Below, piece after piece: positions 26,810 through 32,353 of a stretch of 64,000 nucleotides of DNA. The position numbers and the translations under genes are program-made. The notes below the pieces were generated by a model that worked only from the letters and a program-made list of their open reading frames with translations, ran no database searches and was not told the DNA's origin. This DNA is from Phreatobacter stygius (GTDB taxonomy: Bacteria; Pseudomonadota; Alphaproteobacteria; Rhizobiales; Phreatobacteraceae), in NCBI RefSeq assembly GCF_005144885.1, contig NZ_CP039690.1, positions 5,531,001 to 5,595,000 of the forward strand, read 5' to 3'. Every line of letters starts with the position of its first letter. Positions within the stretch are counted from its first letter, which is position 1.

Positions 26810-27022
26810 ATGGCTACGGGGACCGTTAAATGGTTCAATATCCAAAAGGGCTTCGGCTTCATTCAGCCGGATGACGGCGGCAATGATGCCTTCGTCCATA
26901 TCAGCGCTGTTGAGCGCGCCGGGCTCGGTGATCTGCGCGAAGGACAGAAGCTCGACTTCGAGCTCGTCTCCGACCGCAAGAGCGGCAAGATGTCCGCAGA
27001 CAATCTCAAGGCTCTGGACTGA
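26810..27022 (+). CDS. Cold-shock domain protein (CspA family)
   Basis: 70 residues, a single five-stranded OB-fold. RNP1 is KGFGFIQPD and RNP2 is DAFVHISAV, both binding single-stranded nucleic acid. The start MATGTVKWFN is the universal family start; an in-frame upstream ATG at 26636 would add 58 non-homologous residues. It acts as an RNA chaperone. A GC hairpin follows the stop (27033-27053) and a strong terminator follows at 27160. Confidence 0.95.
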   Translation: MATGTVKWFNIQKGFGFIQPDDGGNDAFVHISAVERAGLGDLREGQKLDFELVSDRKSGKMSADNLKALD

Positions 27023-27053: not shown

Positions 27054-27159
27054 TGGCATTCTGCATCGCCAAATGAAGCCGACCGCGGATGTACCGGCGG
27101 CTTTGGTTTTGATGGTGCAGCAAGCATGATGCCCAACAAGGCGTTTTGGCGCCTTGATT

Positions 27160-27197
27160 GGCCCCGCACCTCGTGAAGGTCGCGGGGCCTTTATTTT
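27160..27197 (+). terminator. Intrinsic terminator downstream of csp
   Basis: GGCCCCG with CGGGGCC forms the main stem, with ACCT/AGGT pairing inside, followed by TTTATTTT. This is the clearest Rho-independent terminator in the window. Confidence 0.85.
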
Positions 27198-27268
27198 GTC
27201 GACCGCTGCATCGGCTTCAAGGAGCAGCCGCGCGCCCCGCGTCTCAAACTCAGGAAGGCTGGTCGATC

Positions 27269-27577
27269 ATGCGATATCTCGGCGGAATTTCCGGGAGCGG
27301 CGTGCTGAAATATGACGGCAAGGCGCATGCCCGCGCCTCCTATGATTTCGACGGCTTCTTCAAGGAGCCGCTTGGAGTGACCGGCAGCGGCGAGATCCAG
27401 CTGGCGCCCAGCGCGCTCAAGAGCGTGTTCGGGCGCAACGACGTCCAACTCCTCACCGATGACGGCCGTCTGCTCGATCTCAAATTTTCCGAGAAGGAAC
27501 TGCGCACCGCAAGCGACGTTGCTCATGTGGACGTCACGGGAGAATTGCCGACCGCTGGCGGCGCCTGGAGCCACTGA
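27269..27577 (+). CDS. Conserved small protein of unknown function
   Basis: 102 residues starting MRYLGGISGSGVLKYDGK. An AGGA motif lies about 15 bases upstream, a poor spacing, and the frame could extend further upstream, but the compact beta-rich sequence begins here. Alternating hydrophobic/polar strands (ARASYDFDGFF, VTGSGEIQLAP, VQLLTDDGRLLDLKFSE) suggest a small beta-barrel or sandwich. There are no cysteines, signal peptide or membrane segment. It stands alone between csp and manA. I do not recognise the family. Confidence 0.65.
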   Translation: MRYLGGISGSGVLKYDGKAHARASYDFDGFFKEPLGVTGSGEIQLAPSALKSVFGRNDVQLLTDDGRLLDLKFSEKELRTASDVAHVDVTGELPTAGGAWSH

Positions 27578-27772: not shown

Positions 27773-28735
27773 ATGGCGATCGAACATGCCTGCGTGCGGG
27801 TGGTGCAGAAGCCGTGGGGCAACACCGACCTCTTGCCGTGGAGCGAGGTTCAGCATGACGGCGCGGCGATCGGCGAACTCTGGTTCCAGCGTGCCAACAT
27901 GAATGCGCCGGATCCGGCCTTGCTCCTGAAACTCTTGTTCACCAAGGAGCCGCTGTCGATCCAGGTCCATCCGGACGATGCCTTCGCGCAGTCGATCGGG
28001 CTTGGCAACGGCAAGACCGAGGCTTGGTATATCCTGTCGGCCGCGCCCGACGCCAAGGTTGCCGTCGGGCTGACGCGACAGCTGACAGCGGCTGAATTGC
28101 GATGCGCCATCGACGACGGCTCGATCGCCGGGCTGGTGCAATGGCGAGCGGTCGGCAAGGACGACATCGTCTATGTCCCGGCCGGCACCATTCACGCCAT
28201 CGGGCCCGGGCTGGTGCTCGCCGAGATCCAGCAGCGAAGCGACGCGACATTCCGCCTGTTCGATCACGGCCGTGTCCGTGAACTGCATGTCGACAACGCC
28301 GTTGCGGCAGCATTCGCCGGGCCGGCCGCCGAAAGCCAACCCGCCGCGAAGCGCCTGACCGACGCCAGGACCTTGCTGGTCGCCAGCCCCTATTTCGTCC
28401 TGGAGCGGATCGACTTCGCACCGAAATCGAACTGGGACATCGCGGCCGGGCAGGAGACCTGGCTGCTGGTCCTGGAAGGTCACGCCCAGGTCGGGCCGAT
28501 GAATGCCTTTGTCGGCGAGGCGATCTTCCTGGAGGCGGAGACCACCAGCATCCAGGTTGGCGGCGACGGCCTTCGGGCTCTGCTGGCCTATGCGGGCGCC
28601 GATCCCGTTGCGGGCCTCCTGCACAATCGCGATGGGCAGAATGTCGGTTTTCCGGTTCCCGGTCAGCCGCCGATAGCTCCTTTTCAACCGGCAAAGGCGG
28701 GGCCGCCGGCCGCCAAGACGGAGATGCGCCCGTGA
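27773..28735 (+). CDS. manA: Mannose-6-phosphate isomerase, class I
   Basis: 320 residues of a type I PMI cupin. It interconverts fructose-6-phosphate and mannose-6-phosphate. The zinc site is provided by the QVHPDDAFA motif (~residues 60-68, Gln and His), a downstream Glu, and the His of GTIHAIG (~137-143). The start at 27773 has AGGAGA 6 bases upstream. The stop overlaps the start of the glycosyltransferase by four bases. Its place as first gene of a mannose-handling trio suggests it supplies mannose-6-phosphate for GDP-mannose. No phosphomannomutase or guanylyltransferase gene is nearby. Confidence 0.88.
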   Translation: MAIEHACVRVVQKPWGNTDLLPWSEVQHDGAAIGELWFQRANMNAPDPALLLKLLFTKEPLSIQVHPDDAFAQSIGLGNGKTEAWYILSAAPDAKVAVGLTRQLTAAELRCAIDDGSIAGLVQWRAVGKDDIVYVPAGTIHAIGPGLVLAEIQQRSDATFRLFDHGRVRELHVDNAVAAAFAGPAAESQPAAKRLTDARTLLVASPYFVLERIDFAPKSNWDIAAGQETWLLVLEGHAQVGPMNAFVGEAIFLEAETTSIQVGGDGLRALLAYAGADPVAGLLHNRDGQNVGFPVPGQPPIAPFQPAKAGPPAAKTEMRP

Positions 28736-31017
28736 CCCAGCTGACCCGCCTGGCCTTTGTTGGCAATTCGCTGCCGCGCCGCTGCGGCATCGCCACCTTC
28801 ACCACCGACCTGCAGCAGGCGGTCTCGCAGGCACGCGCCGACGTCGAGACCGCCATCGTGGCGATGACCGACCACGGCCAGACCTACGATTATCCCTCCG
28901 CCGTTCGCCTGCAGGTCCACGATGACCTGATCGAGGACTACCAGCAGGCGGCCGACGTGCTGAATGCCGGTCAATTCGACGTCGTCTGCCTCCAGCACGA
29001 ATTCGGCATTTTCGGCGGCGAGGCTGGTGGTCACATCATGGCGCTGATCTCGCGGCTGACCATGCCGGTGGTCACCACGCTTCATACCGTGCTGGCCGAG
29101 CCGACGCCGGCGCAGCGCGGCGTCATGAACCAGATCGTCGATGCCTCGTCCAAGGTGGTCGTCATGGCCGAGAAGGCGCGTGACCTGCTGCGCACCCGAT
29201 ATCGGGTGCCGGCCGACAAGATCGAGGTCATCGCGCATGGAATTCCGGATTTCGCCTTCGTCGAGCCGGACCAGGCCAAGGCCGATCTCGGCTTCGCCGG
29301 CCGGTCCGTCATCCTGACCTTCGGGCTCCTGTCGCCCAACAAGGGCATCGAGGTGATGATCGACGCCATGCCGTCGATCCTCGAGAGCCGGCCCGATGCC
29401 GTCTATGTCGTGCTTGGCGCGACCCATCCCAATCTCGTACGGGACCAGGGCGAGGCCTATCGCGAGAGCCTGGTGACCCGCGCCCGCGCCATCGGCGTCG
29501 AGAACCACGTGGTGTTTCTCGACCGGTTCGTCGACCAGGCGACGCTGCTCGAGTTCATCGCCATGTGCGACGTCTATGTCACGCCTTACCTCAACGAGGC
29601 GCAGATGACCTCGGGCACGCTCGCCTACAGTTTCGGGCTCGGCAAGGCGGTCGTGTCGACGCCCTATTGGCACGCCCAGGAACTCCTGTCGGAAGGGCGC
29701 GGCATTCTGGTGCCGTTCGGCGATGCCAAGGCCATCGGCCGGGAGATCGCGGGACTGCTGACCAATGATGTCCGGCGCCAGGCCATGCGCAAGCGCGCCT
29801 ATGCGGCAAGCCGGTCGATGACCTGGGAGCGCACCGCCGAGCGTTATCTCTCGGTGTTCGAAACCGCCCGGCGCGGCCACAAGCTGCGGGTGGTGACCCG
29901 GCCCGACACGAGCCCGCCGTTGCGCGACAGCCAGGCCGCGCCGGAGATGCAGATCGGCCATCTTCTGTCGATGTGCGACGATACCGGCCTGTTCCAGCAT
30001 GCGGTTCATTCCGTGCCCGATCGCCATCACGGTTATTGTGTCGACGACAATGCCCGGGCCTTGCTGGTGGCCTGCGCGTTGAACAAGCCGGGCGAGCAGC
30101 GCCTGCCCGACGTGCTGACGACCCGCTTCGCGGCCTTCATCCAGCACGCCTGGAACCCCGACATCAGGCGCTTCCGCAATTTCATGGGCTTCGATCGGCG
30201 CTGGCTCGAAGACCAGGGTTCGGAGGACAGCCACGGCCGCACCCTCTGGGCCTTGGGCGAGTGCGCCCGGGGCGATGCCAGCCCGTCGCGGCGGCGCTGG
30301 GCGGCGGCCTTGTTCGCCGAGGCATTGCCGACGGTCGAAGGCTTTGCCTCGCCGCGCGCCTGGGCCTTCGCACTGCTCGGCCTCGACGCCTATTGCGCCG
30401 CGGTCGCCGCGGATTCGGTCGCCTTGCGCATCCAGCGGCTGCTCGCCGACAGGCTGATGTCGATCCTGGCTGCCGTCGAGACCGCCGATTGGGTCTGGTT
30501 CGAAGAAGGGCTCGCTTATGACAATGCGCGCCTGCCGCAGGCGCTGATCGCAACCGGCAGATCGACCGGCATGCCGGCGACGGTCGAAGCCGGCCTGCGA
30601 TCGCTGCGCTGGCTGATGACACTGCAGACCACGCCGGCGGGGCGGTTCAGACCGGTCGGCTCGAAGAGCTTCGGCGATATCAGGCAACCGCCAAGACCCT
30701 TCGACCAGCAGCCCCTGGAAGCCACCGCGACCATCTCGGCCTGCCTTGCGGCCTGGCGCGCCGATGGCGACGCTCAATGGCGGGCAGGGGCGGCGAGTGC
30801 TTTCGCGTGGTTCCTCGGCAGCAACGACCTGTCCTTGCCGCTGGTCGACCTCGACACCGGCAGCTGCCGTGACGGCCTGCATCCCGATCGCCGCAACGAG
30901 AACCGTGGTGGCGAGTCGGTCGTGTCCTATCTGCTCAGCCTTGCCGAAATCCGCCAGCTGGCGCGCATGACCGGCGATCGGGCCGCGCTCGCGCCGCTGC
31001 GTGCGGTGGGCGCCTGA
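28732..31017 (+). CDS. Two-domain GT4 glycosyltransferase with C-terminal helical barrel
   Basis: 761 residues, begins with GTG overlapping the manA stop. Residues ~1-375 form a GT-B fold: GNSLPRRCGIATFTTDL at the start, LTFGLLSPNKGIEVMI for the donor-site hinge, and QMTSGTLAYSFGLGKAVVSTPYWHAQELL for the nucleotide-sugar loop. Residues ~395-755 are an all-helical domain with HGYCVDDNARALL and WFEEGLAYDNARLPQAL repeats, resembling an (alpha/alpha) barrel of glycosidase type. No signal or membrane segment is seen, so it is cytosolic. It is likely a mannosyltransferase judged by its neighbours manA and GH130. The donor, acceptor and the job of the C-terminal barrel are not known. Confidence 0.88.
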   Translation: MTQLTRLAFVGNSLPRRCGIATFTTDLQQAVSQARADVETAIVAMTDHGQTYDYPSAVRLQVHDDLIEDYQQAADVLNAGQFDVVCLQHEFGIFGGEAGGHIMALISRLTMPVVTTLHTVLAEPTPAQRGVMNQIVDASSKVVVMAEKARDLLRTRYRVPADKIEVIAHGIPDFAFVEPDQAKADLGFAGRSVILTFGLLSPNKGIEVMIDAMPSILESRPDAVYVVLGATHPNLVRDQGEAYRESLVTRARAIGVENHVVFLDRFVDQATLLEFIAMCDVYVTPYLNEAQMTSGTLAYSFGLGKAVVSTPYWHAQELLSEGRGILVPFGDAKAIGREIAGLLTNDVRRQAMRKRAYAASRSMTWERTAERYLSVFETARRGHKLRVVTRPDTSPPLRDSQAAPEMQIGHLLSMCDDTGLFQHAVHSVPDRHHGYCVDDNARALLVACALNKPGEQRLPDVLTTRFAAFIQHAWNPDIRRFRNFMGFDRRWLEDQGSEDSHGRTLWALGECARGDASPSRRRWAAALFAEALPTVEGFASPRAWAFALLGLDAYCAAVAADSVALRIQRLLADRLMSILAAVETADWVWFEEGLAYDNARLPQALIATGRSTGMPATVEAGLRSLRWLMTLQTTPAGRFRPVGSKSFGDIRQPPRPFDQQPLEATATISACLAAWRADGDAQWRAGAASAFAWFLGSNDLSLPLVDLDTGSCRDGLHPDRRNENRGGESVVSYLLSLAEIRQLARMTGDRAALAPLRAVGA

Positions 31018-31054
31018 ACCTCCTGACATCCCACCTGAAACAACCGAGGGCCCT

Positions 31055-32353
31055 TTGTCTTCTGTCACATTCCTGAACCGGCAAGCTCTCTACCTGCGCC
31101 CCGACACGGCAAGGGTCATCGTTCGCCCGTTCAAGCCGACCACCGAACCGCGCGACCTCAAGCCGACCGACAAGACGCGGGCAAACCACATCGTCGACCG
31201 GGTGCTCGGGCTCGACCCGGAAGCAGCGGCCAGCCAGCTGGCGGACGTGCTGGAGAATTTCCAGGGCCGCCATCGCAACCTGCTCGCGATCTTCGAGGCG
31301 CGCGCCGACGAGATGGAAGAGGCTTTGATCGCCCACGCGTCGTTCAGCCGGACCCAACGGCAACTGCTCGGCGCCTATTTCCTCAACGAATATTCCTTCG
31401 AGGCTTCGGCCCTGTTCAATCCGAGCATCGTCTCGCATCCCGATCAGTCGGGGGCGCCGGAGGGCGGCCGTCGCTTCATCCTCAGCCTGCGCGCGGTCGG
31501 CGAGGGCCATGTGTCGTCGCTGACCTTCCGCTCCGGATCGATCGCGGCGGACGGCAGCGTCAGCGTCGATCCGACGGCGCGTCTTGCCGCGATGCCGAAA
31601 GTGGTCAGGCGGGTCGGAAGTCCTGAAGGCGACCATGTCGAGGTTGCCTTCAAGTCCGAAGAAGATATCAGCGAGCGGGTGATCTTCCCGGTCACCCAGG
31701 CCCAGTCGAACGGCATCGAGGATGCCCGTTTCGTTGAATTCGCCGATGACGGCAGGAAGACCTTTTACGCGACCTATACGGCCTATAGCGGCACGGGCAT
31801 CCGGTCCGAACTGATCGAGACCTCGGACTTCCTCTCGTTCAAGATGGTGCCTTTGCGCGGCTCTGCCGCCAGGAACAAGGGCATGGCCCTGTTCCCCCGC
31901 AAGATCGGCGGCCGCTATGCGATGATCGCCCGGCAGGACAACGAGAACCTCTATCTGATCACCTCGGACGACCTCTATTCCTGGGACGGCGGCGAACTGC
32001 TCCTGAAGCCCGAATTCCCCTGGGAGTTCGTCCAGATCGGCAATTGCGGTTCGCCGATCGAGCTGGACGAAGGTTGGCTCCTGCTGACCCACGGGGTTGG
32101 TCCGGTGCGCAAATATTCGATCGGCGCGGCGCTGCTCGCCAAGAACGACCCGTCCAAGGTGCTGGCGCGCTCGCGCGAACCGCTGCTGCGTCCGGAGCCA
32201 TCCGAGCGCGAGGGCTACGTCCCCAATGTCGTTTATACCTGCGGGGCCATGCGGCACGGCGACCAGATCGTCCTGCCTTATGCCGTCTCCGATACCTACT
32301 CCAACTTCGCGACCATCAAGATCGCCGCGCTGTTGAAGACCATGGAGAACTGA
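31055..32353 (+). CDS. GH130 family beta-mannoside phosphorylase
   Basis: 432 residues from a probable TTG start at 31055. An in-frame alternative at 31001 lies inside the preceding gene. Five-bladed propeller of GH130: [10 protein letters not shown] carries the conserved catalytic Asp, followed by [29 protein letters not shown], and [23 protein letters not shown]130 enzymes phosphorolyse (or in reverse synthesise) beta-1,4- or beta-1,2-mannosides, giving mannose-1-phosphate. It is the third gene of the manA-GT4-GH130 trio. It could recycle the product of the GT4 enzyme. Its 3' end overlaps the convergent AraC gene by 38 bases. Confidence 0.88.

Follow-up and report, generated by a model that had tools for sequence, protein, structure and literature searches.

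Why should a bacterium keep a mannose-6-phosphate isomerase (ManA), a 761-residue glycosyltransferase of family GT4 and a phosphorylase of family GH130 side by side, and does the transferase build the very bond that the phosphorylase breaks? The question is raised by a locus of Phreatobacter stygius (Alphaproteobacteria; Rhizobiales) within a stretch of 64,000 nucleotides (contig NZ_CP039690.1, positions 5,531,001 to 5,595,000), which was analysed as a whole and is called the window here. A preliminary description of the window had reported the three genes at 27773-32353, coupled or adjacent to one another, and this arrangement, on the forward strand, is confirmed by the open reading frames (ORFs) and by family scans. 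We find that the trio is a conserved set and no chance neighbourhood; it is a conserved mannose module, undescribed in the literature that we searched, and a variant of GT4/GH130 mannoside metabolism. Our answer as to its function is more guarded: we see an even chance that the module makes and turns over a mannogen-like beta-mannoside in the cytosol, with mannose 1-phosphate (Man-1-P) at the centre of the cycle.

Conservation and co-occurrence of the gene set

A locus scan that took one genome per species gave 35 loci encoding a relative of the GH130 protein, and the GT4 gene adjoins the GH130 gene in every one of them. A match to ManA was present in 21 of the 35, upstream in 20 and on the other side in one (L022, 37% identity). 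In a wider set of 61 loci, which includes those 35 and in which L034 and L155 are probably one genome, GT4 and GH130 stand together in 60, and the contig of the 61st ends. Sampling by class gave a similar picture: among 387 alphaproteobacterial genomes a GT4 match of any strength was scored in at least 152 and strong matches, of 330 bits or more, in at least 10 (the genome ranked next reaches 58), PF04041 (GH130) was found in 11, and all 10 strong-GT4 genomes are among these 11 (Fisher p 6e-19, kinship not corrected). A correlation of 0.87 between GT4 and GH130 distances (22 loci) is obtainable from shared ancestry alone and was not used.

The C-terminal helical domain of the GT4 protein follows GH130 across the phylum as well. 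It occurs in 19 of 397 sampled genomes (a 20th hit, at 19 bits, was set aside), 18 of them with GH130, and in the 19th (G530), which is without GH130, the domain lies on a 6-kb contig. GH130 itself was found in 34 of the 397. Of these 34, 16 have no helical domain; none of the 16 belongs to the Alphaproteobacteria, and the best matches of their GH130s start at profile positions 4-49, as against 83-87 for GT4-adjacent GH130s.

Rearranged and plasmid-borne copies

We regard the rearranged copies as the best evidence for a functional link. In L094 the order is GT4-GH130-ManA, and plasmid pBAR3 of Sphingomonas bisphenolicum (L129) carries GroES, GroEL, ManC, ManA, GT4, GH130 and phosphomannomutase, of which the run from ManC to phosphomannomutase is a route of guanosine diphosphate mannose (GDP-mannose). 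ManC-GT4-GH130 recurs on plasmids of S. paucimobilis, Sphingobium cloacae, S. sanxanigenens and S. koreensis (L131, L132, L139, L141) as part of one shared island, where GrpE, DnaK, a DnaJ-type protein and a HAD-IIB protein are encoded as well and to which two longer stretches add Hsp20, a universal stress protein, Dps and pentose-phosphate genes. Over all 16 plasmid records, ManC lies beside GT4 or one gene before it in five, a phosphomannomutase is present in one, a phosphomannose isomerase (PMI) in five and a HAD-IIB protein in six. All four HAD-IIB proteins scanned pass the Pfam cut-offs for eukaryotic phosphomannomutase and for Hydrolase_3, and the three scanned with NCBIfam pass the general HAD-IIB model only, so that they may be mutases or phosphatases. 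Given these partners, a mannosyl donor is likely.

Plasmids of other genera carry a long GT4, two GH130s and a short GT4 in Ilyobacter (Fusobacteriota), and a long GT4, one GH130 and a short GT4 in Deinococcus. On a Croceicoccus plasmid one gene encodes the GT-B half and another, about 14 kb away, the helical half; PMI and GH130 lie no more than about 7 kb from the GT-B gene. The module is accessory, is sometimes plasmid-borne and lies beside chaperone genes in some hosts.

Some further observations concern individual plasmids. The Croceicoccus gene whose product matches the helical domain only (L140, 33612-34655) is annotated as hypothetical. On the Sphingomonas paeninsulae plasmid (L137, 7001-9325) the GT4 matches fall in several pieces over several annotated ORFs, and the nearby GH130 and PMI are annotated as single genes. 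Plasmid pISP0 has a long-type GH130 beside copper-resistance genes (L138, 7079-8302); no GT4 is listed in this 15-kb stretch, and the GT4 search, which matched 28 records, did not match pISP0. In a Rhizobium plasmid an AGE-family epimerase/isomerase gene directly follows GT4-GH130 (L136, 10673-11803). The island of L139 (1-26247) and L141, on conjugative sphingomonad plasmids, unites Hsp20, DnaK/GrpE/DnaJ, Dps, a universal stress protein, zwf, gnd and ManC-GT4-GH130, and we take it to be reminiscent of transmissible stress-tolerance loci.

The GH130 protein

The GH130 protein is probably a phosphorylase-type enzyme, likely acting on beta-1,2-mannosides, a prediction that is well supported by sequence. 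It passes PF04041 (119.8 bits against a cut-off of 26, over residues 224-449 of a 450-residue frame only), and its AlphaFold2 model (predicted local distance difference test, pLDDT, 80.5; predicted template-modelling score, pTM, 0.80) finds its best folds in Teth514_1788, a 1,2-beta-oligomannan phosphorylase, and then in the beta-1,2-mannobiose phosphorylase of Thermoanaerobacter (TM-scores 0.73-0.75 by target length, 0.52-0.53 by query). Asn122, Asp223, Asp413, Lys275, Arg293, His346 and Tyr354 are invariant in all 31 aligned sequences, the window's included. Among 23 diverse GH130s, short ones included, the Asn, both Asp, the Arg and the His are kept throughout and Tyr354 and Lys275 in 22 each (Asp in L098 and Arg in L126b, respectively).

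An Asn and two Asp that bind mannose in the -1 subsite are given for Teth514_1788/1789 (PMC4264767); Asp223 and Asp413 are equivalent to these by alignment, and Asn122 by motif. GH130 hydrolases lack basic phosphate ligands (PMC4599007), and from this, together with alignments to PDB chains, we infer that Lys275, Arg293, His346 and Tyr354 may be the phosphate ligands. As to linkage, a lysine marks beta-1,2 specificity in GH130 (PMC4599007). The letters at the specificity position are NK in the window, Teth514, Lin0857 and Uhgb_MS chains and NR in TM1225 and Uhgb_MP, the last two being beta-1,4 enzymes (PMC8950772); NK is thus shared by the window and the beta-1,2 enzymes, and the lysine of the window's NK would correspond to Lys199 of BT3780. 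The protein stays below the equivalog cut-offs for beta-1,2-mannobiose phosphorylase (NF050092, 150 of 550 bits; NF052550, 146.4 of 450 bits).

The GT4 protein and its helical domain

Pfam places GT4/GT1 domains over residues 36-377 of the GT4 protein and nothing beyond. The AlphaFold2 model (pLDDT 80.7, pTM 0.50) has a GT-B half and a helical half, and the pTM leaves the arrangement of these domains uncertain. Fold matches comprise GlgM, PimB', BshA, MshA and PimA, and also trehalose and sucrose-phosphate synthases. Canonical GT4 enzymes have an EX7E motif and a pyrophosphate-binding Arg/Lys. Compared with three short companion GT4s, which retain these canonical letters, the window protein has Gln291-X7-Tyr299 in place of EX7E and Leu199 in place of the Arg, with Lys204 kept. 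In a set of 16 diverse long GT4s, His118, Lys204, Gln291, Ser294 and Gly295 do not vary, and position 299 is Tyr in 15 and Gln in one. Both His118 and the KG-motif Lys have their counterparts in the alignment with PimA.

An "extra helical barrel" had been assigned to this protein. The helical part is borne out by the AlphaFold2 model, with a mean pLDDT of 80.7 over the domain (Table 1); closure into a barrel lies outside that support. No Pfam family matches the window's helical domain at E up to 1, and in a Foldseek search with the whole GT4 model the first 50 matches were GT-B type glycosyltransferases, so that the domain was not placed. Its profile has a single significant solved relative, the putative exported protein YPO2471 (PDB 7tem, 2e-16; the next match is at 0.12), with the match lying mainly in the domain's second half. 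The residues kept in 17 of 17 sequences include Asp, Asn, Arg, His, Trp, Glu, Tyr and Gln and look like those of an active site or sugar groove, and one of the 17 members matches GlcNAc 2-epimerase at 0.049, which is a hint only.

ManA and the supply of GDP-mannose

ManA scores below the curated cut-offs (TIGR00218, 58.2 of 116.2 bits; PF20511, 18.6 of 22). A profile of ManA and its relatives matches B. subtilis ManA (1qwr) at 4.4e-30, and His66, Glu83 and His141, which are the same in all 19 aligned sequences (the window's included) and aligned with 1qwr, are presumably the metal ligands of a type I PMI. The trio's ManA is the sole TIGR00218 match in the host genome, which further contains one GH130, one GMP/PMI (ManC) and two mutases of the phosphoglucomutase/phosphomannomutase (PGM/PMM) fold, GlmM-like and ManB/PGM-like by our reading. 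Since ManA, ManC and such mutases are all present, the host can probably make GDP-mannose.

Proposed function and its alternatives

Our proposal builds on gene order, conservation, co-occurrence, active-site residues and the genes for GDP-mannose as observed, and from there extends to donor, acceptor, linkage, direction, cellular place and physiological role. ManA would link fructose 6-phosphate with mannose 6-phosphate, and phosphomannomutase and the ManC guanylyltransferase, whose genes lie elsewhere in the host genome and inside the cluster in some relatives, would lead on to Man-1-P and GDP-mannose. The GT4-helical protein would move a sugar, most likely mannose, onto an acceptor to give a primer or core, on which GH130, using Man-1-P/phosphate, would reversibly add or remove mannosyl residues in beta linkage, probably beta-1,2. 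A beta-mannoside or short mannan would thus arise inside the cell, comparable in a bacterium to the mannogen of Leishmania, and might be used as a reserve or stress solute.

A stress role of the module is a fair guess. Cold-shock genes occur in the fetched stretch of nine of the 61 loci (eight if L034 and L155 are one genome), where the host genome's own density would lead one to expect 0.69, a comparison that is not corrected for kinship and is a hint only; GroEL matches occur in six of the 61, a count that has no control. Among the 16 plasmid stretches, a chaperone, cold-shock, universal-stress or CsbD gene is found in eight (L128, L129, L131, L132, L135, L139, L140, L141), four of which are the one shared island.

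A number of points weigh against the proposal as a whole or against parts of it: (i) the functions of all module members are predictions from sequence; (ii) ManA is missing in 14 of the 35 loci (five of these 14 are contigs cut inside GT4) and ManC in 11 of the 16 plasmid stretches; (iii) the scan of 387 genomes scored at most two GT4 candidates per genome, so that its GT4 counts are lower bounds; (iv) within the window's genus just two of 11 relatives have a hit, which makes the module accessory and not core metabolism; (v) with the EX7E glutamates and the canonical Arg lost, a nucleotide-sugar donor of GT4 is not assured; (vi) the short GH130 of L088 carries the NK lysine despite being nearest to the beta-1,4 enzyme TM1225, and the lysine is therefore no strict linkage test; (vii) eight of the 16 plasmid stretches (L126, L127, L130, L133, L136, L137, L138, L142) list neither a chaperone nor a cold-shock protein nor any other named stress protein; and (viii) an EcfG promoter, matched in one of 30 upstream regions versus 19 of 1450 control pieces, was rejected. 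The single EcfG match is in the window's own upstream region, inside a neighbouring ORF, and as the matches are not beyond chance a general-stress promoter is not shown.

The preliminary description had seen a mannose-centred unit with a phosphorylase-type GH130, which the active-site residues and the mannose-gene partners support, and had suggested a simple cycle of synthesis and recycling, in which GT4 makes a mannoside and GH130 phosphorolyses the same bond back to Man-1-P. The tight linkage and co-occurrence of GT4 and GH130 are in keeping with such a cycle, and the unusual active site of the GT4 might allow exceptional stereochemistry. GT4 is, however, a retaining family, which with GDP-alpha-mannose as donor would yield alpha-mannosides. 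GH130 enzymes act on beta-mannosides with inversion (PMC4599007, PMC8950772). An alpha-mannoside made from GDP-mannose is therefore probably not the bond that GH130 cuts, and we hold the same-bond cycle to be quite unlikely; it is more likely that GT4 supplies a primer or core for GH130 to act on. The unit was thus rightly recognised, and it is the proposed chemistry that needs correction. Loss of EX7E, together with the trehalose and sucrose-phosphate synthases among the fold matches, would also suit a GT4 whose product is a small alpha-glycoside solute, or whose substrate is a different donor or a sugar phosphate, in the manner of trehalose or mannosylfructose, with GH130 working on a separate pool. 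The HAD-IIB proteins with mutase/phosphatase similarity in six of the 16 plasmid records, and a GH13 enzyme with a short canonical GT4 downstream of the trio in four of the 61 loci, point the same way, but the mannose-specific partners ManA, ManC and GH130 are more frequent, and we think this scenario improbable.

It is also conceivable that the module salvages imported beta-mannosides, GH130 releasing Man-1-P that passes through GDP-mannose to an envelope or glycan GT4, as proposed for Thermoanaerobacter, whose cluster has the same enzyme types (PMC4264767). Transporter genes do lie near some copies, and a TctC gene is found 6 kb from the window's trio. In a scan of 133 neighbour ORFs of 200-700 residues, taken from 38 loci at no more than four per locus (a simple script called them, and some may be spurious), however, the transport families among the 25 of 147 families listed were MFS with four, branched-chain permease with two and TctC with two, and none exceeded four. 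The 14 genes around the trio that were scanned include neither a sugar importer nor a mannanase, although no search was made for importers in the rest of the genome, and we judge salvage unlikely. We are tentative, and inclined to doubt, with regard to a bolder form of our own proposal, in which the GT4-helical protein would be a new catalytic type that primes, and the long GH130 would extend and mobilise, an intracellular beta-1,2-mannan, a stress-protective reserve spread on conjugative plasmids, with the helical domain as a third, hitherto undescribed enzyme activity on the same glycan.

Relation to known systems

Precedent for GT4 and GH130 genes standing together comes from Thermoanaerobacter sp. 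X-514, in which the cluster Teth514_1785-1796 contains a GT4, two GH130 enzymes that are beta-1,2-mannoside phosphorylases, and a mannose-1-phosphate guanylyltransferase (PMC4264767). Its GH130s are the nearest solved folds to that of the window; the likeness covers the GH130s and the gene content. Unlike the trio, the Thermoanaerobacter cluster has an ABC importer and a GH5, and its mannose-6-phosphate isomerase lies elsewhere (PMC4264767); an importer beside the phosphorylases is thus a trait that the 14 genes around our trio do not share. Its GH130 chains are of 303 and 313 residues, against 432 in the window.

In Leishmania, mannogen is a reserve of beta-1,2-mannan, and the enzymes that turn it over with Man-1-P are five-bladed propellers; in sequence they are GT108 transferase/phosphorylases and not GH130, and no GT4 partner is named in the part of the source at hand (PMC8950772). 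BshA, MshA, PimA and PimB' share the GT-B fold with the window GT4, which differs from them in being without the EX7E glutamates and Arg and in its extra C-terminal helical domain. A literature search, judged by titles and the beginnings of abstracts, turned up no description of the GT4-helical/GH130/ManA set. The earlier impression that no described pathway has this composition holds for the exact set; it does not hold for the wider arrangement, given the Thermoanaerobacter cluster of a GT4, two GH130s and a guanylyltransferase (PMC4264767).

Gene boundaries and neighbouring genes

The manA stop and the GTG start of the GT4 gene overlap by four bases (28732-28735). The ORF listing opens manA further upstream, at TTG 27674, and the ATG at 27773 is the start used here. 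The GH130 frame can be opened at GTG 31001 (450 residues), but the alignment of its relatives begins at TTG 31055, 37 bases past the GT4 stop, so that these two genes are adjacent and not overlapping.

Table 1. Coordinates of the module genes, their parts and associated features. Positions are those of the window, except in the last row, where they are those of the locus named.
Feature	Position	Strand	Remarks
manA	27773-28735	+	divergent type I (class I) mannose-6-phosphate isomerase, 320 residues from ATG
GT4-helical-domain gene, whole	28732-31017	+	761 residues, GTG start
GT4 glycosyltransferase (GT-B) part	28732-29892	+	residues about 1-387; Pfam PF13439/PF00534/PF13692
C-terminal helical domain	30040-30969	+	residues about 437-746; without Pfam family
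Long GH130	31055-32353	+	432 residues; propeller part preceded by a helix-containing N-terminal extension (about residues 41-113)
Cold-shock protein gene	26810-27022	+	PF00313; upstream context, outside the operon proper
GH13 enzyme and short GT4	L009 11561-14205; L012 11539-14231; L026 11041-13762; L157 11275-13911; L093 8091-12366

The 14 genes around the trio encode a phosphoenolpyruvate carboxylase, a cold-shock protein, a hypothetical protein, an AraC protein, a berberine-bridge-type oxidase, SnoaL, OsmC, two sigma factors, three YCII proteins, a DUF899 protein and the TctC receptor. An ORF of 102 residues between the cold-shock gene and manA (27269-27577) has matches in two of the 35 loci (L007, 75%; L020, 58%), and the longer frame of this interval (27158-27577) is without match in Pfam and NCBIfam scans. 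Among the 133 neighbour ORFs the most frequent Pfam families were transglutaminase core (six), MFS (four), GT4/GT1 (four) and alpha-amylase (three). The 25 of 147 families listed for them include no mannanase family, and a locus for plant-mannan degradation, which was considered, is not supported by these neighbours.

The GH13 enzyme mentioned above is of the alpha-amylase family; it is followed by the short canonical GT4, and the two lie a few kb downstream of the trio. In L093 such a pair is directly behind that genome's third GH130. The pair may be a second sugar module that travels with the trio. One protein cluster recurs near the module in seven loci (L007, L016, L019, L025, L032, L033, L103) and would be a transglutaminase-like family; an annotated transglutaminase family protein is encoded in L129 at 1375-2154.

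Significance

GH130 enzymes have mostly been explained in the papers cited here as tools for the use of plant, yeast or host glycans, and GH130 in ammonia-oxidising archaea has been interpreted as mannan degradation (PMC11131427, PMC6657660). Of the 11 alphaproteobacterial genomes with GH130 in our sample, 10 carry one that is tied to a dedicated GT4, and some clusters add genes for GDP-mannose, a pattern suggesting that the mannoside is self-made, in Bradyrhizobium as well as on plasmids of Rhizobium and Sphingomonas. The module offers an enzyme pair and a helical domain ready for assay. If our proposal is true, the default reading of a GH130 gene would shift from mannan degradation to a mannoside cycle.

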